DNA of 54,259 nucleotides, taken from the IMG/VR virus record IMGVR_UViG_3300010401_000011, positions 1 through 54,259 of that record; one strand, given 5' to 3'. Below the pieces are notes generated by a model. It did not search any database, had not been told where the DNA came from, and worked only from the letters and a program-made list of their open reading frames with translations. How positions within the stretch are numbered: the stretch's first letter is position 1; each line of letters begins with the position of its first letter. This DNA is from a virus. Shown here in pieces: positions 1 to 54,259 of this stretch. The translations under genes were made by a program, and so were the position numbers.

Positions 1-126
1 GCCACCCCCGACGGTTGGCGCTCCCTGCTCGAGGACGACCTCGGGCTCTGGTTCCAGGGCTCGGACAAGGAACTCTACCGCCTGAGCAAGGGCGGCGCCA
101 TCGAGTGGCTGGGCAAGGACGTATAG
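1..126 (+). CDS. Tail nozzle protein, internal segment ending at in-frame amber codon (continues from 51488)
   Basis: This is the continuation, across the circular junction, of the reading frame that starts at 51488. Bases 1-123 are identical to 54137-54259 and are in the same frame. Codons 1-41 read on to a TAG at 124-126, after about 924 residues of the joined protein. The following codons stay open in the same frame to 738 and look like uninterrupted continuation of the same protein, so the TAG is either an amber mutation, a base error at the contig join, or a readthrough site. The segment is part of a P22 gp10-like packaged-DNA stabilisation/nozzle protein by its distal N-terminus. Confidence 0.75.
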   Translation, partial: ATPDGWRSLLEDDLGLWFQGSDKELYRLSKGGAIEWLGKDV

Positions 127-135
127 GACAAGCTC

Positions 136-738
136 TTGGCGTTCCCCATCGTGACCGCGGCGCTCTACGTCTCGAGCAAGCAAGAGGTTGCGTTCAGCGT
201 CACCAGCACGGACGGGCTCACGGGCGGCATCCTCCGGTACCGGGAAGAGCGCCAAGCCTGGTTCTTCGATGACGTGGGCGTGGTGACGAGCATGGCCGAC
301 TACCAAGGCCGCATCGCCATCGTACAGGCCGGCGTCGTGCTCATCCAGGATACGGCGCCTGGTGTCGGCACGGCCGTCCCCTACTACGTCAAGACGGGCA
401 TGTTCCAGGGCTTCCAGGCGCTCGGCTACGGCGCCTTACAACAGGTGGGCGTGCTCGGCACCTACCGCGGCCCGTTCACGCTCGAGATAAAGAAGAGCGT
501 CAACGGCACGGCCTTCCCCGAGAGCATCGGCATCTGGGTCGTGACCGGCGCGGACTTCGCCGTTGGCGATCGGGTGGTCAAGCTCGTGACTCCGGCCGTC
601 ATGCAGCACGACCAGTTTGCGCTCGAGTACCTGGTGACCCCGACGAGTGGCAGCGAAGGGTTGTGGCTGCACGCCGCCGCCATCGAGACCGACAAGCAAC
701 CGGGTTTTGCGCGTCTCGGCGCTGCCCACAATCTGTAA
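136..738 (+). CDS. Tail nozzle protein, C-terminal segment after the amber codon
   Basis: The frame is open from 127, directly after the TAG at 124-126; the first possible initiation codon is TTG at 136. There is no purine-rich ribosome site before it, so independent translation looks weak and the 204-codon segment is best read as the missing C-terminus of the gene beginning at 51488 (total about 1,128 codons). Content is beta-strand-like with no cysteine motifs. Stop TAA at 736-738, then a GGAGA site leads to the next gene. The family name (podoviral nozzle/stabilisation protein) is inferred from the N-terminus of the joined protein and its place before the ejection proteins. Confidence 0.7.
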   Translation: MAFPIVTAALYVSSKQEVAFSVTSTDGLTGGILRYREERQAWFFDDVGVVTSMADYQGRIAIVQAGVVLIQDTAPGVGTAVPYYVKTGMFQGFQALGYGALQQVGVLGTYRGPFTLEIKKSVNGTAFPESIGIWVVTGADFAVGDRVVKLVTPAVMQHDQFALEYLVTPTSGSEGLWLHAAAIETDKQPGFARLGAAHNL

Positions 739-7962: not shown

Positions 7963-9939
7963 ATGGCCAAAGCCCCGGAGTTCGGCACGTGGGATTGCGA
8001 GGCCTGGTATCTTCGCCGCGTCAAGGCCAAGGCGTGCTCGGAGCTCAAGGACCTGTGCGAGCGCGCGATGGTGGAGAACTGTTATCGGGCTACGCGCGCC
8101 TATCGGTACGCGAGCAAGTTTTCCGGCTATACGCTCACGAACCTATCGAGCTACGGCGCGGACGTGAGCGCATCGGGGCGGCCACTCGACACTAGCTGGG
8201 ACGCGCCGCTCATTAAAAACCGGCTGCCGCAACTCTGCAAGAGCTTCGTCGCCAAGAGCTTCGCCAATGATTCCCCGCTCCCTCAATTCACGACCAAGGG
8301 CGGGGACTACGAGCAGACCCTGAAAGCCGAGACCCTAGACCAGGCCATCGCGACCGAGTACGCGCAAGAGCATGGCAGCTTCAGTGACGTGGCCGAACTC
8401 CACCGGCACGGCGCGCTCATTGCCGCGAGCAGCACGGGCACGTACTTCGTTTTCTGCATCGACTACGACAACGCGACCCGGCCCGAAGCCGAGCTCGACG
8501 ACAGTCTGACCATCGGCATCTTTCGCGCCCACAAGTACGGCGCGATTCGCATGCTGGTGCGCACGATCTGGATGCTGCCCGAGGAAGCGATTCGCAAGTT
8601 TGGCAAGCGCTTCTCTGAGCAGATCTACGCCAACCTAGAACCGCGTGACGGCCAGTTCGTTGCCGGTCGTCCCGGGGGCGGGCTCGGCGGGGCCAACACC
8701 TTTGCGACCATCAACCGGCGCGAGGTGCGGATCCATATGGGCTGGGCCGTGCAGGTCGGCGCCGAGCCCGGCCGCCAGATGTTTTGCCTCAAGGACGGCA
8801 AGACCATCCTCCGGGACCGCGTCTACACGAAGCCGAAGCCACCGTGCGTGTTCTGGCACTACGAGGCCGATCTCGACGGCGAGTGGGGTACGCCGCTCAC
8901 ACAGCACGTGTTCCTGCTCAGCCAGTACCAGAACCGGATCCTGAACGACGTCGACACGGCCGAGCGCAAGACCAGCCAGGTGGTCATCGCCGTGCAGAAG
9001 GGCACGCAAGGGGCCAAGGCCATGACGAGCCAGGTGGTCAACACCAAGGCCGTGCAGGTCATCGAGGTGGACGGCCCGGTCGATAGCGCGATGAAGATCT
9101 TCGAGTCGCCCAAGTTCAGCAAGGACTCGCTCGGGCTCGAGGCCATTTACGATAACGCGCAGTTCGAGGACTCGGGCATCCCCCGCAACCATGCTCAGGG
9201 CACGCACGCGGCGGGCGCTCAAAGCGGCATCCAAGAGTCGCTCCGGGCGAGCTACTACACGGAGAACTTTGCCGACGCCGAGCGCCGCGCCATCCAGGTC
9301 CGCGCCATCGGCACGGCCACCATCTTTCTGTGGGTCTTGCAGTCCCTGGCCGAAAAGGGCTTCGAGCGCTGGATCGGGGACAAGAGCTTCCGGCGGCTCA
9401 TCAAGTCGACCGATCTCGATCTCGACGAGGACAAGTACATCACCGAGATCAAGGCCGTCGGCGAGGGCAAGGACAGCCCGGCGTCGCGCCTCGAGAAGGC
9501 CGAGAAGTGGCTCAACAACCCAGCCGTGGAGTTCAACGGCGGCAACATGGTCGAGATGCTCAAGACGTTCGACGTCAAGACCGCCGAGCAGCGCGCCAAC
9601 GCCATCCACGAGTGGGTCATCGAGCAGGTCGAGCGTTGGCGCAAGGCACCCGCTGCCGAGATGCGAAAGCCAGACTTCTATCAGCCCCCGGAGCGCTGGT
9701 TCCAGGTGCCGGCTTTGAAGGATGCCCTGACCACCCTGGCCTTCGAGTTCCTCAAGGCGCGCCAGGACAAGGTGCCGGACAATCGCCTCGCCTGGTTCGA
9801 AAAGTTTGGTAACGAGTGCACGGTCATCATCCAGACCGAAGAGCAGCGGATCGCCGCCTTGCAGAATCCGGGCGTACCCATGCCGGGTGCGCCTGCACCA
9901 CCCCCCGGGGCAGCACCGCCCGGAGCGATGGCGGCTTAG
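7963..9939 (+). CDS. Portal protein
   Basis: A 658-residue protein of the size of P22-like/podoviral portals. It builds the dodecameric ring at the capsid vertex through which DNA is packed and ejected. The region around residues 296-345 shows the typical portal pattern: a WHY motif, then TPLTQHVFLLSQYQN-type helix followed by the ILNDVD...AERKTSQ helix. The C-terminus is a proline/alanine-rich disordered tail. It follows the ejection genes and precedes scaffold and terminase genes in one transcription unit. It stops with TAG at 9937-9939, one of several ordinary uses of TAG as stop in this genome. Confidence 0.85.
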   Translation: MAKAPEFGTWDCEAWYLRRVKAKACSELKDLCERAMVENCYRATRAYRYASKFSGYTLTNLSSYGADVSASGRPLDTSWDAPLIKNRLPQLCKSFVAKSFANDSPLPQFTTKGGDYEQTLKAETLDQAIATEYAQEHGSFSDVAELHRHGALIAASSTGTYFVFCIDYDNATRPEAELDDSLTIGIFRAHKYGAIRMLVRTIWMLPEEAIRKFGKRFSEQIYANLEPRDGQFVAGRPGGGLGGANTFATINRREVRIHMGWAVQVGAEPGRQMFCLKDGKTILRDRVYTKPKPPCVFWHYEADLDGEWGTPLTQHVFLLSQYQNRILNDVDTAERKTSQVVIAVQKGTQGAKAMTSQVVNTKAVQVIEVDGPVDSAMKIFESPKFSKDSLGLEAIYDNAQFEDSGIPRNHAQGTHAAGAQSGIQESLRASYYTENFADAERRAIQVRAIGTATIFLWVLQSLAEKGFERWIGDKSFRRLIKSTDLDLDEDKYITEIKAVGEGKDSPASRLEKAEKWLNNPAVEFNGGNMVEMLKTFDVKTAEQRANAIHEWVIEQVERWRKAPAAEMRKPDFYQPPERWFQVPALKDALTTLAFEFLKARQDKVPDNRLAWFEKFGNECTVIIQTEEQRIAALQNPGVPMPGAPAPPPGAAPPGAMAA

Positions 9940-28520: not shown

Positions 28521-29033
28521 GTGAGCGCCCGCGCGTCGACCGTGAGCGAAAGTGCTGCTAAAGTCCACGGCGTGCCCGAGCCACCCGACAAGGACACGCC
28601 CCCGACTGGATCCGCGCGCCTGAACGCGCCCCCGGCCGTGCCCACGGTCAAGACCCTGAGCCACCAGATCGTGGGAATAGCCGGGCAGCTGCACGGCGCC
28701 CGTGGCGACATCGATACCGTGCTCGAGTGGCAAAAGGCCATGGCTACGGACCTCAAGGCCGTGCGCACGGCCCTGCTCGGCGATCCACGGGTCTTGCACA
28801 TTTCGACCTTGCCGTCCCCGGGCTCGCTCATGCCGCCGCCGAGCTCGAGTTCCATCAACCCGCCCGCGCCCCGCCCGAGCATGGCGGTCAAGGCGGGCAA
28901 GACGACCGCACAGGTTGCCCCCTGGGTGCTCGTCCTGCTCGGCCTGGTGAGCGAGATTGCCGCCCGGCACACGGCCCACGGCGGGGCCTTCTCGGCCATC
29001 CTGAAACTGGTCTTTCCGGACGCGGTGCCATGA
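28521..29033 (+). CDS. Holin candidate (single membrane segment)
   Basis: A 170-residue frame. Residues about 130-150 are a hydrophobic segment (VAPWVLVLLGLVSEIAA) flanked by charged residues; the rest is soluble and Pro/Ser-rich at 95-125, with a helix near 45-80. Overlapping ATG of the endolysin (ATGA) makes it a holin or spanin-like candidate by position. Start is uncertain: GTG 28521 directly after a stop, or GTG 28572. No T-type holin family could be named. Confidence 0.5.
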   Translation: MSARASTVSESAAKVHGVPEPPDKDTPPTGSARLNAPPAVPTVKTLSHQIVGIAGQLHGARGDIDTVLEWQKAMATDLKAVRTALLGDPRVLHISTLPSPGSLMPPPSSSSINPPAPRPSMAVKAGKTTAQVAPWVLVLLGLVSEIAARHTAHGGAFSAILKLVFPDAVP

Positions 29034-29623
29034 CGCCCGAGGCCGTGCGCGCGTTCCAGAAGGCCCATCTCAACCACCTCGGCCGCCCGCTGAAAGACGA
29101 CGGGGAGCTCGGCCCGGAAACGCGCTGGGCTCTCGACGCCGATACGCTCAGCCCGCACCGGCGCGGCATCGTCCGTATCGCCCAAGCCTTCATCGGGCTC
29201 GAGGAACACCCGCCCGGGAGCAACTCCGATCCGGCCGGCACCATCCGAGACTGGCTCACGCACGTGGGCGCTCATCCGGGCGTTCCGTGGTGTGCGGCGT
29301 TTGCCAGCCACTGTCTCGGCACCGTCAGGATAGGCGGCGCGCAAGCCCTGGGTCGGCACTTCCCGGCCACGCTCAGCCCCTACCCGGGGGATATCCTGTG
29401 GTTTCCGACCGACGCCATCCACGGCCATTGCGGCATCGTCACGGGCTTGACCCTGAGCGAGGTCATGAGCATCGAGGGCAATTGCCTGAACGCCGTGCGG
29501 TGCGTGCGCCGGCAGCGCGACAAGGTCCGTTTTGCACGCGTCCTCGATGAGACGGTAGGAGTCTGCCCGGGAGTCGTTCCGAGCGTGCCGTGGGCCACTT
29601 CCGGCGCGGGAGGGACGCGGTGA
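29030..29623 (+). CDS. Endolysin: peptidoglycan-binding domain plus CHAP-like amidase/peptidase
   Basis: A 197-residue lysis enzyme. Residues 1-40 match a peptidoglycan-binding type domain (TPEAVRAFQKAHL...GELGPETRWALDADT). Residues about 45-195 show a CHAP/NlpC-P60-like catalytic domain: VPWCAAFASHCLG with catalytic-type Cys88, PGDILWF, and HGHCGIVTG with His133, followed by SIEGN. It would cut peptide or amide bonds in peptidoglycan at the end of infection. The ATG overlaps the previous stop. Confidence 0.85.
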   Translation: MTPEAVRAFQKAHLNHLGRPLKDDGELGPETRWALDADTLSPHRRGIVRIAQAFIGLEEHPPGSNSDPAGTIRDWLTHVGAHPGVPWCAAFASHCLGTVRIGGAQALGRHFPATLSPYPGDILWFPTDAIHGHCGIVTGLTLSEVMSIEGNCLNAVRCVRRQRDKVRFARVLDETVGVCPGVVPSVPWATSGAGGTR

Positions 29624-37185: not shown

Positions 37186-37563
37186 ATGGGGCATGACATG
37201 GGCCGGGACGATGGGGGCATGGCGCAAGAATTGGTGCGCTATTTCGCGCGCTTGGTGGCCGCGGAGTTGCGTGGCGCCGATGTTTCCCTCGTCTCCGGGG
37301 CTACCAGCCCACTGGGCGCCCGCCGCCACAATGCCGCCGTGCGCCGCCGCATCGCCGAGCACGCCGCGGGGGAGCTCCCGATCTCGGGGGCAAGCAAGGT
37401 CGGCAAAACGCACTACCTGACGCAAGAGGCCCTGGCCGAAGAGCTTGGGCGCCCATCGGGCCCGAGCGTCAGCAAGACCAAGCCCCGCGAGCCCTCGCCC
37501 GACGACGACGAGCAGGCCGCGTACAACGCCGTCATGGGCCGCTACCCGGGAGCAAAGCAGTGA
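37186..37563 (+). CDS. Excisionase-like/helix-turn-helix small protein
   Basis: A 125-residue protein starting at ATG 37186 (GAGAGGA seven bases upstream; later ATGs at 37198 and 37219 are possible). The C-terminal LPISGASKVGKTHYLTQEAL then AEELGR pattern resembles the winged helix-turn-helix of excisionases. It overlaps the integrase gene by four bases (GTGA), as recombination directionality factors often do. The N-terminal RYFARLVAAELR region is helical and basic. Confidence 0.5.
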   Translation: MGHDMGRDDGGMAQELVRYFARLVAAELRGADVSLVSGATSPLGARRHNAAVRRRIAEHAAGELPISGASKVGKTHYLTQEALAEELGRPSGPSVSKTKPREPSPDDDEQAAYNAVMGRYPGAKQ

Positions 37564-39152
37564 CGGCCAAGCTCACCAAGGGCGGCGCCAAGGACCGCGT
37601 CCGGCTCGGCGCGGGCGCGCGCACCCCGATCCTGCTCCCGGGCGTGACCAGCCTGACCGTGGCCGAGGATCGGTTCAGCCGGTTGCGGCAAATGGTGACG
37701 GCGCTGGTCGATTCGAAAAAGCAATCGGAGGCACCCCGTATCATTGCCGACGCCGCGCGCGTCGCCAACAACCCGAAGGCCTTCGCGGGCATCGAGCGGG
37801 CCGTCCGGGACCTCTGCACGCGAGAGGGCGCCCTCGACAAGCCCATGACCATGAATGAGCTTTGCCACCTCTACACGAGCGGCGAGCTGCAGCGGCGCTA
37901 CCCCCGGCACGTCGACGTCAAGGGCAAGACGGACGAGACCCGGGAGCTCGAGCGCCGCCGCCTGGCTCTGCTCTGCAAGGTCATCGGAAACATCCCCGTT
38001 GCAGATCTCACCCGGGACGACTGCGAGCGCGCCATGCTCGAGGTGCCGGCGACCGCGAGCAGCGGCTGGCGGCGCTCGCACTCTCAGCCGCTCTTTCACG
38101 TGCTCGATATCGCGTGCCTCAACATGCGGCTCATCGAGGCGAGCCCGCTACCGCGTAGGTGGGCCGACGCGCCCAACGCTCCCGCGATGACGGCCATCCT
38201 ATACCCGAAAGAGGAAGCCCAACTCGCCGCGTGCCCCGACGTCGACATCGACTTCCGGGTGATGTGGGGCGTGCAGATCCGGGAAGGGTTGCGCCCGGGC
38301 GGCGTGGCCTTGCTCCGCCGGGACGAGGTTGACCTCGACTCGGGCACCATCACCCACCGGCACAAGACCAAGTCCTATCGCATGTGGACGCTCGGTGCCG
38401 ACGTGGTGCGGGTGCTCCGGTGGTGGCTCGACTACCGGCCCGATCCCGAGTTCGTGTTCCCGCACGTGGCACGCGGGCACCTGGTCAAGCTGGCGGCGTG
38501 GTTCCGTGAGGCCCTCGTCACGGCGGGCGTCAACCGGCGCGCGCTCCATGCCGAAGCCACGGCGGGCAAGCGCCCGATCCGCGCCCACGATCTCCGGACG
38601 TCGTTCGTCACGGTCGCGTTTGCCGACGGTCGCCCCGAATCTTGGATTTCGGCTCGCACTGGTCATACCACGGCGGCTCAGCTGGCCCGATACAAGCGGG
38701 TTGCCGAATCGCTAGAGGCCCTGGATCTAGGCTGGTTTGCACCGCTCGACGAGGTTTTAGGGGTGGGCTCGGGGGTGGGCCCGATTTGCAAATCCACCGG
38801 GGAAAACCCTATGTCAAAAACACCAGCTTGTTCTTTAAAAGGCACCGAAAAGCGCTCTCGAGCAGCGAAAAGCTCGCTGAAACCACCCTCAGGCGTCCTG
38901 AGCGCGCCTGAGAACCGAGCCCAGGGTGGGGGGGGTGGGCTTTGTGGGCCCGCACCGGAAGCAACGGTCACGGCACTCGACGAGGATAGCCTAACCGACC
39001 TGCTCGCGCTCGCCACCAAAGCCAAGCGTTGGGATCTGGTGGCCAAGGTCGGTGCACAACTCGAGGACATCGAACGGGTCAGGGCCGCCACGGGCAGCCC
39101 CAAGGTCGCGTCCCTCGATGCCGCCCGGGCCAAGCGGGAGCGGACCAAGTGA
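37560..39152 (+). CDS. int: Tyrosine recombinase (integrase) with C-terminal extension
   Basis: A 530-residue site-specific recombinase starting at GTG. The catalytic residues are present: Arg245 (REGLRPGG), Lys269 (HKTK), His343-Asp-Leu-Arg346 (AHDLRTSF), His369 (TGHTTAAQL) and Tyr378 (ARYKR). It would catalyse integration and, with the excisionase, excision. The last 130 residues lie beyond the catalytic tyrosine and are low in conserved features: they hold an AT-richer segment and a palindrome that could be the attachment site. Its extended length is unusual for this family. Confidence 0.92.
   Translation: MTAKLTKGGAKDRVRLGAGARTPILLPGVTSLTVAEDRFSRLRQMVTALVDSKKQSEAPRIIADAARVANNPKAFAGIERAVRDLCTREGALDKPMTMNELCHLYTSGELQRRYPRHVDVKGKTDETRELERRRLALLCKVIGNIPVADLTRDDCERAMLEVPATASSGWRRSHSQPLFHVLDIACLNMRLIEASPLPRRWADAPNAPAMTAILYPKEEAQLAACPDVDIDFRVMWGVQIREGLRPGGVALLRRDEVDLDSGTITHRHKTKSYRMWTLGADVVRVLRWWLDYRPDPEFVFPHVARGHLVKLAAWFREALVTAGVNRRALHAEATAGKRPIRAHDLRTSFVTVAFADGRPESWISARTGHTTAAQLARYKRVAESLEALDLGWFAPLDEVLGVGSGVGPICKSTGENPMSKTPACSLKGTEKRSRAAKSSLKPPSGVLSAPENRAQGGGGGLCGPAPEATVTALDEDSLTDLLALATKAKRWDLVAKVGAQLEDIERVRAATGSPKVASLDAARAKRERTK
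38783..38794. repeat. 12-base palindrome in AT-rich island within integrase extension
   Basis: GATTTGCAAATC is a perfect palindrome, flanked by GGTGG on the left and CCACC on the right, and followed by the AT-rich stretch around 38800-38845. The compositional dip in a GC-rich gene, positioned after the catalytic tyrosine, resembles phage attachment sites located inside int (as in Myxococcus phage Mx8). Confidence 0.35.
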
Positions 39153-46568: not shown

Positions 46569-47372
46569 ATGGGCCTCGCACTCGTTCAGCAGCCATCCGC
46601 TCCCGCCCTCACCCCCGAGCCGCTCCGCTTCTCGCGCTTGAAGCGCATGGGTAAGAGCGCCATGCACTACGCCGATGAGACGGCGTGGGAAGAGACGGGG
46701 CCCATGCGCAAGGGCACGGCGCTGCACTCGTTCCTGCTCGGCGGCCGCGCCATCGTCATGTACGAGGGCCGCCGGGACCCGCGCATGGCCGCGTGGCGAG
46801 ACTTCCAGGCCGAGCACGCGGGCAAGGTCATCCTGAGCCCGAAAGAACTCGGCGCGGTCGGTGGCATGCGAAAGAGCCTCGAACGGCACAAGCGCGCGCG
46901 CGAGTTGCTCGATGACGGCGTGCAGGAAAACCGAATCGAGTGGGACCTGGCCGGTCGAGCCTGTGCCGGAACACCGGACGTCATCCGTCCGAAGAACGGT
47001 CGGAAACGCCTGGTGGAGCTCAAGACCGGCAACACGTCCGCGCCGGGCCTGTTCAAACACAAGGCCAAGGGCATGGGCTACCACGCTCAGGTGGCCTGGT
47101 ACGCGGACGGGTGCGAGCGGACCATGAGCTACGAGCCCGGGGCCGTGACGGAGGTGTTCATCGTGGCCGTGGAATCGTCCTCGCCATACCCGGTCACGGT
47201 CTTCCGCGTGTGCGAAAGCATGCTCACGCTCGGCCGCAAACAATACCGCGCTTGGTTCGAGGCGGCCCGCAACTGCGAGCACGCGGATCACTTCCCAGCC
47301 TACGCGGAAAATGACGTAGACTGGGAGGATGAGGAGGGCGACGGGGACGGGCTCGATTGGAGCGACGAGTAA
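46569..47372 (+). CDS. PD-(D/E)XK exonuclease (Cas4/RecE-like)
   Basis: A 267-residue nuclease. The motif series is GTALH (49-53), GTPDVIRP with Asp137, VELKTG with Glu150-Leu-Lys152, and AQVAWYADG with Gln174 and Tyr178. These fit the PDDEXK phage exonuclease family used in single-strand annealing recombination. It would resect DNA ends and, with the upstream protein, mediate recombination. The C-terminal tail is acidic. Confidence 0.82.
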   Translation: MGLALVQQPSAPALTPEPLRFSRLKRMGKSAMHYADETAWEETGPMRKGTALHSFLLGGRAIVMYEGRRDPRMAAWRDFQAEHAGKVILSPKELGAVGGMRKSLERHKRARELLDDGVQENRIEWDLAGRACAGTPDVIRPKNGRKRLVELKTGNTSAPGLFKHKAKGMGYHAQVAWYADGCERTMSYEPGAVTEVFIVAVESSSPYPVTVFRVCESMLTLGRKQYRAWFEAARNCEHADHFPAYAENDVDWEDEEGDGDGLDWSDE

Positions 47373-48309: not shown

Positions 48310-48686
48310 CGGAGCCGAACCGGACCCACTGTTGCCGAGAGCCCGTGGACCGTGGCGATGGGCGCTACTGTAACGAGTGCCTTTCGCGGCCATGCCGGTG
48401 GGCGGACTCGCTTGGGCCATTCCCGGAGACTGACCTGGAAACCAAGCTACGCGCCGTCATGGCCGAAGCCGACGAGTGGGGCACCGTGGCGGACTTCGAG
48501 CGGTCCTTGCGCGAGCAGGGCTTGCACGTCGTGACCGCGGCTGAGAAGGCCAGACTGGACGCGCTCGATGCCGTGCCGGCTGATGTCCTCGACGACTGGC
48601 GCGCCTTCACGGTGCACGTCCGGCATATCCCCGCGTGCCACGATCTGGCAGTGGCCGTGCTCGCCCGGCGAAAGGCCACACCATGA
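48306..48686 (+). CDS. Hypothetical protein with Cys motif
   Basis: A 126-residue protein starting at ATG 48306. HCCREP, YCNECLSRPC near the N-terminus suggest a zinc site. The rest is helical. A longer upstream frame is rejected because it overlaps coupled genes. Confidence 0.55.
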   Translation: MTEPNRTHCCREPVDRGDGRYCNECLSRPCRWADSLGPFPETDLETKLRAVMAEADEWGTVADFERSLREQGLHVVTAAEKARLDALDAVPADVLDDWRAFTVHVRHIPACHDLAVAVLARRKATP

Positions 48687-49342
48687 CATCCGCCGCCCAC
48701 GCTACCCCCATCACCAACACCCCGGTGCAAGACGCCGTCCGCGCGTACACGGCCCGGGGCTTCCGTTGCGTGCCCCTCTACGGTGTCGACGACCACGGCA
48801 ATTGCATGTGCGGCAACCCGTCGTGCAAGCCGCGGGACCACGGAAAGCACGAGCCGCCCGAGACCGACGGCACCTGGAAGGACGGGCGCACTTTCGGCCC
48901 CGAGGACTTCCGCGCAACGGACAACGTGGCCATCGCGCTCGGCCCCTGGAAAGCCAAGCATGGGCAACACTCGTGGCTGGTCTGCCTCGACATGGACGGC
49001 ACCGATGACGCGCGCGTGTTCTTTCCGAACCTGCCCCCGACGCTCACGCAGAAGAGCCAGCACGGGCTGCACCTGTTCTTCACCGTCCGCGAGTTCGAGC
49101 CGCTCGGCAATTGGGTCGATTGCTTCGGGACCAGGGCCGCCGGCTTCCAGCTCGATCTCAGGTACGCCCGCGGCCGTATCGTGGTCGCACCATCCCGGGG
49201 AGCTTGGGGCCGCTACGAGTGGCAGGACTGGCGCGCTCCCGTGCCCTTGCCGAGCGAGGCTTTGAGCGCCATCTACGGGCAACGCCAGACCCGCGGCTTG
49301 CCCGTGCTCGAACGGTGGGAGCGGGGGAGCAAGGCGCCGTGA
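48683..49342 (+). CDS. Bifunctional primase/polymerase N-terminal (prim-pol) domain protein
   Basis: A 219-residue protein of the AEP prim-pol family. Residues about 18-34 (AVRAYTARGFRCVPLYG) begin the domain; a metal site is suggested by NCMCGNPSCKPRDHGKHEP; catalytic Asp103 and Asp105 lie in VCLDMDG; His127 in KSQHGLHLFF and RGRIVVAPSRG follow. The C-terminal helicase found in many family members is missing, so it would prime or extend DNA alone or with host helicase. Confidence 0.82.
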   Translation: MTSAAHATPITNTPVQDAVRAYTARGFRCVPLYGVDDHGNCMCGNPSCKPRDHGKHEPPETDGTWKDGRTFGPEDFRATDNVAIALGPWKAKHGQHSWLVCLDMDGTDDARVFFPNLPPTLTQKSQHGLHLFFTVREFEPLGNWVDCFGTRAAGFQLDLRYARGRIVVAPSRGAWGRYEWQDWRAPVPLPSEALSAIYGQRQTRGLPVLERWERGSKAP

Positions 49343-49581: not shown

Positions 49582-49832
49582 ACGAACTCGCCAAGGCCAT
49601 CGAGCGCATGCTCCAAGCATCGCGTAAGTACGACACCGCATGGGACCCGCCCCACAATCCCAACCCGATCGTGTGGGTCACCGGCATCGTGGTGGCGGAC
49701 GAGGCTTTCGATACGGCACTGGACGGCTACCTCAATCACACGGGTGGGCAAGCGGACGATCCGAACTGGTTCGACATCCTGACCTGCAACGGCCCGGTCC
49801 GCATCTATCGGCAAAGCGGTCTGTCCACATGA
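49578..49832 (+). CDS. Small hypothetical protein
   Basis: An 84-residue protein starting at GTG. WDPPHNPNPIVWVTGIV and later ADDPNWFDILTCNGPVRIYR suggest a small alpha/beta fold. No family recognised. Confidence 0.5.
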   Translation: MNELAKAIERMLQASRKYDTAWDPPHNPNPIVWVTGIVVADEAFDTALDGYLNHTGGQADDPNWFDILTCNGPVRIYRQSGLST

Positions 49833-50011
49833 CCAACACCCGTCGCCGGGAGCTCGAGCGCGTGGAAGGTGCTCGCCTGACACCCACCGAGCAGCGAGAG
49901 GGCTGGCACTTCTGCCCGGAGTTTGACGAGGACCTCATCCAGGGCGAGGACACCCCCGGTCAGGTCCGGTGCGGCTGGTGCGGCTTTGACGGGGGCGCGG
50001 TGACGCCATGA
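49829..50011 (+). CDS. Small zinc-site-like conserved protein
   Basis: A 60-residue protein starting at ATG 49829. EGWHFCPEFDEDLI then QVRCGWCGFD resembles a conserved short phage protein with a zinc-like CxxC site. Function unknown. Coupled at both ends by stop-start overlaps. Confidence 0.6.
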   Translation: MTNTRRRELERVEGARLTPTEQREGWHFCPEFDEDLIQGEDTPGQVRCGWCGFDGGAVTP

Positions 50012-51237: not shown

Positions 51238-51488
51238 GCGACGACGACGTGCTCCGTGAGGTCAAGCCCGTGACCAGCGATGACGTGCCCAAGGTGCTGC
51301 ACGAGGCGCTCAGCCTGGCCGTGCAGGGCAAGCTCCGGGGCGTGGTGGTGTTCATGTCCTTCCACGGCTCGACTCAGCTCCGGCACGTGCAGGGCGGGCA
51401 CATGAACCTGGCCGAGGTCAGCATCACCGTCGACCACTGGAAGTGGCAGCACTTCCTGAGCGAGCAAGCCGGGTTGGAGCGAGCCTGA
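51234..51488 (+). CDS. Hypothetical protein upstream of the tail nozzle
   Basis: An 84-residue protein starting at GTG 51234. Ser/Asp-rich N-terminus, then KVLHEALSLAVQGKLRGVVV and HVQGGHMNLAEVSI; alpha/beta look. No family recognised. Its stop shares a base with the nozzle ATG (TGATG). Confidence 0.6.
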   Translation: MSDDDVLREVKPVTSDDVPKVLHEALSLAVQGKLRGVVVFMSFHGSTQLRHVQGGHMNLAEVSITVDHWKWQHFLSEQAGLERA

Positions 51489-54259
51489 TGCCCGCCATCA
51501 CGCTCTTCCCGTTCAACGGCGGGCTGTCCACGCACATCGATACGCGGCTCTTGCCCGATGGCGCGCTGAACGACGCCGTCAACGTGGAGCTCGACCGGCA
51601 AGGGCGGCTCATTGGGCGGGCGAAGTACACGGCGCAAGCCATGACCGTGCAGGGCGGCACCGCCATCTCGGCGGGCACGCTCGTCGCCTATGACCTGTTC
51701 TGCCTGAACGATCGGCTCTTCGCGCTCGCCGATGCGTTCGGCTTTGGCTTCGCCACCGACATCTACGAGCTCATGCCGAGTGGCACGGCCAAGCGTTGGC
51801 GCCCCACCTCGATCGAGGCGGCGGGTGGCGCTACCCCGCGCCTGCCACGGGCAACGCAGGTGCGGGACATGGCTCGCCCACCCGACGCCAAGGACAGCAT
51901 CAGCAACATGGACGGGGCGGCGGGCGCGGGCTTTGCGGCGCTGGTCTGGAACCTCGACGCGAGCCCGAGCGTGAGCGTCAACGGCTACGTGCACATCGTG
52001 AGCGCGGCGAGCGGGGAGAGCGTGCTGTATGCCGAGATGCAAGCGGCCGGGGACGGGCCCGTTGCACTGCTCCGCGTGCTGGCGCTTTCAGACCGGTTCC
52101 TCTTCATCGGGCTAGACTTCGGCACGACCGGCATCGGGCTCTCGCGCTTCATCTACGCGACCGACGAGGCAGTGACGCTGGTTACATCGCACGTGACGGG
52201 CCTCACGGGCACGACGCCCGCGTTCAACGTGTGCAAGGTCGCTGGCTCTGACCAGTTCGTGGTCGTGTCCAACGTCGTTGGCACGGTGCACGTCCAGCGT
52301 TTCAGCAACGCGGGCGTCTTGCAGGTGCCAAGCGGCGGGGCCTACGCGGACATCGTGGCGGCAGCCACTTATCTGGCCGTGGAGGCGTCGAGCACCGCCA
52401 ACCAGATAACCGTGGCCATGCTGGTCGGCGGCGAGGCCCGGCTCTTCTCGTACAACCTGAGCACCGGCGCGGCCATCGGCGTCGGCCCGTTCGTGCCCTT
52501 CACGGGGGAGACCAGTATCGATGTCGCCCTCGTGCGGGTGAGCTCCACCGTGCTCGAGGTGCTGAGCAGCGTGACGAGCGAGACCGCGCCCACGATCTTC
52601 TCGCGCCGCTACACGGTCTCGACCAATGCGTTCGGCACCCTGCTCCGGGCCGTGACTGATTCGCAACTGGCAGCGTCGCCGGCCTTTCAGGGTGAGGTGT
52701 TCTTCGGCTCGCGCGCGGGGCTCGGCACCGTCGGCAATTCGCCCAACATGCTGCTCTCGCACGGGGACGACGATGACGAGGTGACGCCGCTGGTCGTCAA
52801 GGACTTCGAGGTTGCCGGCACCATGACCGCCAACCTCCTGCCCAGCATCAGCCAGGACGCGAGTACGGGCAAATGGTACTGGCCCACGGCCGCGGCCAAC
52901 CCGGACGGGGACCTCGCTCCGGTGCTCACCGAGTTCGAGATGGGCAGCACCGCGCGACGCCAGACGGCCATCTACGGCAACCACGTCTTCATTGGCGGCG
53001 GCTGCCCGCTCGTGTTCGACGGGATTAGCGTGGTCGAGAGCGGCTACCTCGAACGGCCCCGCATCATCAGCCTGACCCCGAGCAACGGCGCGGGTGAGCT
53101 GCTCGGTGGCGGCACGTACCGCTACCGCTGCCATTGGGAGTGGATCGATAGCGAAGGTGACCTGCACCTGAGCCCGCCGAGCGCCATCACGAGCGTCGAC
53201 CTGGCTAGCGCGCATGACACGGTGGCGGCGGTCGTTACGACGCCGCACAGCATGCGTTGGAACCAGGGCACCATCGACGGCACGGTCCGGTGCGTGCTGA
53301 GCCGCACGCTCGCCACCGTCTCGAACACGCCCGCCACGTTGCTCGGCACGGCCGCGCTCACCCCGCCGAGTTCATCGCTCGACACGCTGACCCTCAAGCT
53401 CTTCGCGCTGCCCGGCTTTACGTCATACACGGTCACGTTTTCGGCCGCCGCCATCACGGCCACGGTCGTAGCGAGCGAGATCAACGCCGTCACGAGCGCC
53501 AAGATTACGGCCACGAACGAGAATGAGTATTTGCGCCTGACGAGCGTAGCCTCGGGAAGCACGAGTTTCATCGGCATCCTCGGCACGGGCACCGCCAACG
53601 CCATCCTCGGGTTTGCCGCCAACCAAAGCGATCTCGGGGAGACCGAGTACACGGTCGGGGAGAACTTCCAGCGCGCGGCCGTCGCGTACACGGCGCTCGG
53701 CGGGTCTGCCGTGGCGTCCTACGTGACCATCACGGATCTCCGAAAAGACCAGTCCGATCCCATCCTGGACTCAGACCTCATCCGGCAGCAAGTCCTCTAC
53801 AGCCAGGGCACGGCCTCGGGCGCGCACCATGCCCCGCCGCCCTCGGAGTGTCTCTGGGCAGGGCGTGAGCGGCTCATCGCGAGCAAGCAAGCCAAGCGCT
53901 CCCGCTACACGGCAAGCAAGCTCATCGTCCCGGCCGAGCCAGCCGAGTTCGCGAGCGAGGGCCTGCTCGCCTTCTCCGGCACGGTGGCGGGTGACATCGA
54001 GGCGAGTGCCATGCTCGGTGACACCATGGTGCATTTCACGCGCCGTCAGATCTGGTTCGTCACCGGCTCGGGCCCGGACCGCTCGGGGCAGGGGTCGTTC
54101 TTCGCCGCGCAACTCATCAGCAAAACCATTGGGCTCGCCACCCCCGACGGTTGGCGCTCCCTGCTCGAGGACGACCTCGGGCTCTGGTTCCAGGGCTCGG
54201 ACAAGGAACTCTACCGCCTGAGCAAGGGCGGCGCCATCGAGTGGCTGGGCAAGGACGTA
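51488..54259 (+). CDS. Tail nozzle / packaged DNA stabilisation protein (P22 gp10-like), runs across the junction
   Basis: An open frame from ATG 51488 through the end of the window and into bases 1-126. The N-terminus (LFPFNGGLSTHIDTRLLPDG, ALNDAVNVELDRQGRLIGR) is typical of podoviral nozzle or packaged-DNA-stabilisation proteins, which form the narrow tail below the adaptor. Most of the rest looks beta-rich, with repeated Gly/Thr/Ser segments. An in-frame TAG interrupts it at 124-126 on the circular map. Without the stop the protein would be about 1,128 residues. Confidence 0.7.
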   Translation, partial: MPAITLFPFNGGLSTHIDTRLLPDGALNDAVNVELDRQGRLIGRAKYTAQAMTVQGGTAISAGTLVAYDLFCLNDRLFALADAFGFGFATDIYELMPSGTAKRWRPTSIEAAGGATPRLPRATQVRDMARPPDAKDSISNMDGAAGAGFAALVWNLDASPSVSVNGYVHIVSAASGESVLYAEMQAAGDGPVALLRVLALSDRFLFIGLDFGTTGIGLSRFIYATDEAVTLVTSHVTGLTGTTPAFNVCKVAGSDQFVVVSNVVGTVHVQRFSNAGVLQVPSGGAYADIVAAATYLAVEASSTANQITVAMLVGGEARLFSYNLSTGAAIGVGPFVPFTGETSIDVALVRVSSTVLEVLSSVTSETAPTIFSRRYTVSTNAFGTLLRAVTDSQLAASPAFQGEVFFGSRAGLGTVGNSPNMLLSHGDDDDEVTPLVVKDFEVAGTMTANLLPSISQDASTGKWYWPTAAANPDGDLAPVLTEFEMGSTARRQTAIYGNHVFIGGGCPLVFDGISVVESGYLERPRIISLTPSNGAGELLGGGTYRYRCHWEWIDSEGDLHLSPPSAITSVDLASAHDTVAAVVTTPHSMRWNQGTIDGTVRCVLSRTLATVSNTPATLLGTAALTPPSSSLDTLTLKLFALPGFTSYTVTFSAAAITATVVASEINAVTSAKITATNENEYLRLTSVASGSTSFIGILGTGTANAILGFAANQSDLGETEYTVGENFQRAAVAYTALGGSAVASYVTITDLRKDQSDPILDSDLIRQQVLYSQGTASGAHHAPPPSECLWAGRERLIASKQAKRSRYTASKLIVPAEPAEFASEGLLAFSGTVAGDIEASAMLGDTMVHFTRRQIWFVTGSGPDRSGQGSFFAAQLISKTIGLATPDGWRSLLEDDLGLWFQGSDKELYRLSKGGAIEWLGKDV
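54137..54259. repeat. Terminal overlap identical to 1-123
   Basis: The last 123 bases repeat the first 123 exactly and in the same frame. This is the normal result of assembling a circular or circularly permuted genome, not evidence for a fixed terminal repeat. The unique length is therefore 54,136 bases. Confidence 0.9.

Follow-up and report, generated by a model that had tools for sequence, protein, structure and literature searches.

In the tail protein gp12 of phage T7, a propeller is followed by a fibre dock and, at the C-terminal end, by an adaptor-binding platform (PMC6702177). An in-frame TAG in a phage gene is familiar from another group, the code-15 phages, in which TAG is read as glutamine; in phAss-1, for example, it is reported from 41 ORFs (PMC10607447). 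A different kind of background comes from sequence assembly. JGI-type pipelines run MEGAHIT with the k-list 23, 43, 63, 83, 103, 123 (PMC6243002, PMC6081815). The window analysed here is a virus contig of 54,259 bases, taken at its full length. It carries a probable tail-nozzle gene that runs over the contig joint and is interrupted there by one TAG.

The interrupted frame

The two ends of the contig are identical over 123 bases and no more, which gives a circle of 54,136 bases. When the frame from ATG 51488 is closed over the joint, it reads 924 codons, meets TAG, continues for 203 sense codons (127-735) and ends in TAA (736-738), making 1,128 codon positions in all. The features are as follows.

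51488..54259, + strand: N-terminal part of the nozzle gene, 924 codons, to the contig end; 50-54% identity to the single frames of relatives
1..123, + strand: end overlap, exact copy of 54137-54259; probably the k of the assembler and not a phage terminal repeat
124..126, + strand: in-frame TAG, its T being the first base past the overlap
127..738, + strand: C-terminal part of the nozzle gene, 203 codons plus TAA; 46-52% identity to the C-termini of relatives
125..138, + strand: AGGA (125-128) and then TTG 136, the sole candidate for a restart, without conservation in relatives

The amber codon had been placed in frame at the assembly junction by the initial annotation, and both the exact overlap and the closed frame confirm this. 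The frame past TAG is open as it had stated, the 204 codons that it counted being 203 sense codons plus the stop. This frame also looks like coding sequence. GC3 is 0.87 past TAG and 0.885 before it, whereas the two alternative frames have 0.65 and 0.44. The codon-usage score, whose training genes were mostly ones with relatives, is 0.39 per codon past TAG against 0.31 for the nozzle gene itself. No other TAG of the window is followed in frame by an extension with a coding score. The interruption of the nozzle gene by one codon is a correct observation and more than chance. A run of two unusual bases, in GTA TAG, was considered as a sign of local error and dropped, since GTA accounts for 17 of 355 Val codons and is not rare enough.

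A structural gene with an in-frame TAG is what reassignment of TAG to an amino acid (genetic code 15 or similar) would produce. However, this is the single such codon among 85 called genes. Six other genes end in TAG without a coding extension, the TAG stops listed in the initial annotation are the ends of called genes, and the structural gene at 7963-9939 ends in TAG about where the gene of a relative ends. Neither a tRNA gene nor a suppressor tRNA was found in the window. Reassignment is largely refuted by these gene ends, and a recoded genetic code, already held unlikely in the initial annotation, has a practically negligible chance of being the explanation.

The window also contains an integrase gene (37560-39152), an exonuclease VIII-like gene (46569-47372) and a primase-like gene (48635-49342). 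The virus is probably temperate and encodes recombination functions of its own; named phage records include no close relative of it. The protein encoded at 7963-9939 has 658 residues and is 72% and 57% identical to proteins of relatives. It matched nothing in PHROG or among PDB sequences; since its gene lies among structural genes, it is a candidate for the portal protein.

The gene in relatives and the fold of its product

The nozzle gene was found in five records (G001, G003, G005, G006 and G011), which were reached via one direct match, terminase loci and record handles. G005 and G006 are nearly identical, leaving four independent relatives. In all five records the gene is a single open frame without internal stop, of 1116-1136 codons except for one of 1264 that is open further upstream. 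At the column of the stop the relatives have one residue each, encoded by CGC (Arg), GAG (Glu), GAA (Glu), CAG (Gln) and CAG (Gln). TAG differs by one base from two of these codons, and by this alignment the column is variable and hydrophilic. In the same alignment, relatives and window share 50-53% of residues upstream of TAG and 46-52% downstream of it. None of the relatives ends at the stop with a separate second gene. The parts of 924 and 203 codons are therefore best read as one gene and not two, in agreement with the earlier view that the text on both sides of TAG is one protein.

Other searches added little. The 203-residue C-terminus alone had no match among viral contigs, and the 170 residues before the stop found one relative there. 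Profile scans for further relatives returned none that was new, or known ones only, and neither bacterial and archaeal genomes nor named phage records gave a match to the nozzle gene. An exact-DNA search across the junction found no second assembly of the same phage in the set searched, outside of which near-identical records possibly exist. Shortly past the nozzle gene of G003 (L032, near 887-1850) lie frames with counterparts at 29015-29620 and 49829-49990 of the window (44% and 59% identical), where they are far from the nozzle gene. Judging from such comparisons, small genes of this phage group seem to change their position between genomes.

Sequence libraries do not name the product. PHROG, Pfam and PDB sequences gave no match of weight to a curated nozzle or tail tubular family, leaving only phrog_511 'internal virion protein', with an E of 0.024. 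A structure model of the full length had a poor pLDDT (40), and Foldseek was therefore run with a C-terminal model only. This model, built from a four-sequence alignment, comprises the last 326 residues of the G005 relative, i.e., the C-terminal third of the protein. Its mean pLDDT is 68, with values of 73-89 in blocks around the stop site, and it has antiparallel strands resembling a propeller and, after them, long strands (propeller plus barrel). In PDB the 15 best ranks (E from 6e-8 to 4e-5) are filled by tail or portal-tail chains of phages, including Pa223, the phi-crAss001 muzzle, SU10, Pan3, GP4, E1004, HRP29, P22 gp10, Sf6 and LME-1, and the T7 tail chain ranks just below them. Matches in BFVD are 'stabilization protein' and P22 gp10-like entries. 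An alignment with the T7 tail chain 7ey9_s by VIA-align gave Z 9.5 over 171 residues with an rmsd of 5.8, a score that unrelated propellers reach as well. Over the query, TM-scores to nozzle structures reach only 0.25-0.38, for which uncertain placement of domains in the model is the probable reason. The nozzle family is therefore supported by the rank and consistency of the matches and not by tight superposition. The fold expected of a nozzle, a beta-propeller and then barrel or platform domains, is predicted for the C-terminal part of the relative, and the gene product is probably a podophage-type tail nozzle or hub protein. Thus the tail-nozzle identity proposed in the initial annotation is probably right, supported by fold though without a sequence family match.

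The stop of the window falls at about residue 122 of the model, where a short helix (residues 119-127) separates strands of a propeller blade. A product ending at TAG would, according to the model, be without the end of the propeller and all beyond. A split gene would give products of 924 and about 200 codons, the second of them from a translationally coupled restart at TTG 136, and the two would serve together in the nozzle. The absence of a ribosome site before TTG 136 had been put too strongly, as AGGA, missed at that time, lies 7 bases upstream and the distance from stop to restart is 9 bases. However, no relative splits the gene, and none of the five records has a start codon at the position of TTG 136 (a mid-frame GTG is found near it in G001 and in the near-identical pair G005 and G006). 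Most of the AGGA bases are also present in relatives that do not split the gene, and the cut falls within the propeller blade and not at a domain border. A split gene is very improbable.

Programmed amber readthrough, or suppression by the host, would give a short and a long nozzle protein from the same gene, and the intact, coding-like frame past the stop is compatible with it. But the stop is not conserved, being absent in 5/5 records of relatives. The RNA past it (127-246) is less structured than its shuffles (z = +2.06), with no sign of a stimulating structure, and the window has neither a tRNA gene nor an Rfam element. In addition, the short product would lose the end of the propeller and the part beyond, where T7 gp12 has its adaptor-joining platform. 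Readthrough is exceedingly doubtful as an explanation. The wider proposal that the amber is real and fixed, with a nozzle that is two-part through restart at TTG 136 or dual-length through leaky readthrough, has a slim chance of being correct.

The contig joint and the origin of the stop

The T of the TAG is base 124, the first after the overlap, and the length of the overlap, 123, is the largest k in the published MEGAHIT k-lists. In 30 other contigs of at least 25 kb, drawn blindly from the same collection, exact end repeats were found in nine: four of 127 bases, then 114, 100, 99, 80 and 25. None of the nine in this small sample is of 123 bases; end repeats in the collection often reflect the k of the assembler. 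A genuine phage terminal repeat was considered and judged improbable, since 123 is a known assembler k and the G011 relative is opened inside the terminase gene instead, from which it follows that the genome has no conserved end at the joint. No end overlap is present in the long records of relatives. In G011 (56515 bases; L013 and L045) the terminase gene is split between the two ends of the record without end overlap, implying that this genome is circular or permuted.

A random circular sequence with one variable base served to build a toy de Bruijn graph with k = 123. The arm of the variant starts exactly 123 bases before the variable base. When the loop is opened at this arm, the end overlap is 123 and the variable base is at position 124, as in the window. 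If the circle were opened arbitrarily, the suspect base would fall at position 124 with a chance of 1 in 54,136. This coincidence with the joint is strong but is not proof: the argument was made after the position had been seen, and the use of MEGAHIT ending at k = 123 is itself inferred.

The likely origin of the TAG is a single variant or wrong base at the assembly joint, in a nozzle gene that the functional virus would carry intact. The assembly graph would have branched at base 124 and the circular contig would have been opened there, with reads that disagree at this base, either by an error of sequencing or PCR or because a minority allele is present. In the functional virus the nozzle gene would then be read without a break over about 1,128 codons, a sense codon taking the place of the stop. 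That TAG cuts inside a continuous propeller fold speaks for this reading. Among the other structural genes covered by relatives none is interrupted inside its coding part, and the stops met in these comparisons lie before start codons or in other frames. On the other side, T could be the common allele; a popped bubble in such assemblers normally keeps the better-covered arm.

The same point favours the main rival, namely that the nonsense mutation is real and present in most or all of the phage population, as in a defective prophage or a recent mutant. T is the base that the assembler kept, and a genome with an integrase gene could survive in the prophage state even if its tail did not function. 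In that case the nozzle would lack its C-terminal part along with the end of the propeller. However, the remaining structural genes are unbroken as far as relatives cover them, and if every copy carried T, the exact match with the contig joint would be left unexplained. A fixed nonsense mutation is unlikely. The initial annotation had offered a base error at the contig end, a nonsense mutation and programmed readthrough as options; the first is favoured here over the second, and the third is disfavoured. As a biological feature of the virus, the interrupting stop is probably absent.

Comparison with known systems

T7 gp12, P22 gp10, the SU10 nozzle and the phi-crAss001 muzzle are among the best PDB or BFVD matches across the whole C-terminal model, whereas no sequence similarity to these proteins is detectable. 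As in T7 gp12, the C-terminal model of the relative has a propeller with further beta domains after it. The gene is longer, at about 1,128 codons compared with T7 gp12 chains of about 790. A nozzle gene is thereby placed in a phage group where sequence libraries name none.

The likeness to code-15 phages (TAG to Gln) is an in-frame TAG in a structural gene. While those phages show many such codons, here there is one, no suppressor tRNA accompanies it and TAG still serves as a stop. This takes away what looked like an attractive example of recoding in a structural gene of a phage.

The closest parallel for the stop itself is with circular metagenomic contigs, in which the overlap equals the k of MEGAHIT and, as in the toy graph, the suspect base is the first one past the overlap. 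This offers a general check for such contigs: a single-base oddity at that position is suspect, because disagreement in the graph would land there.
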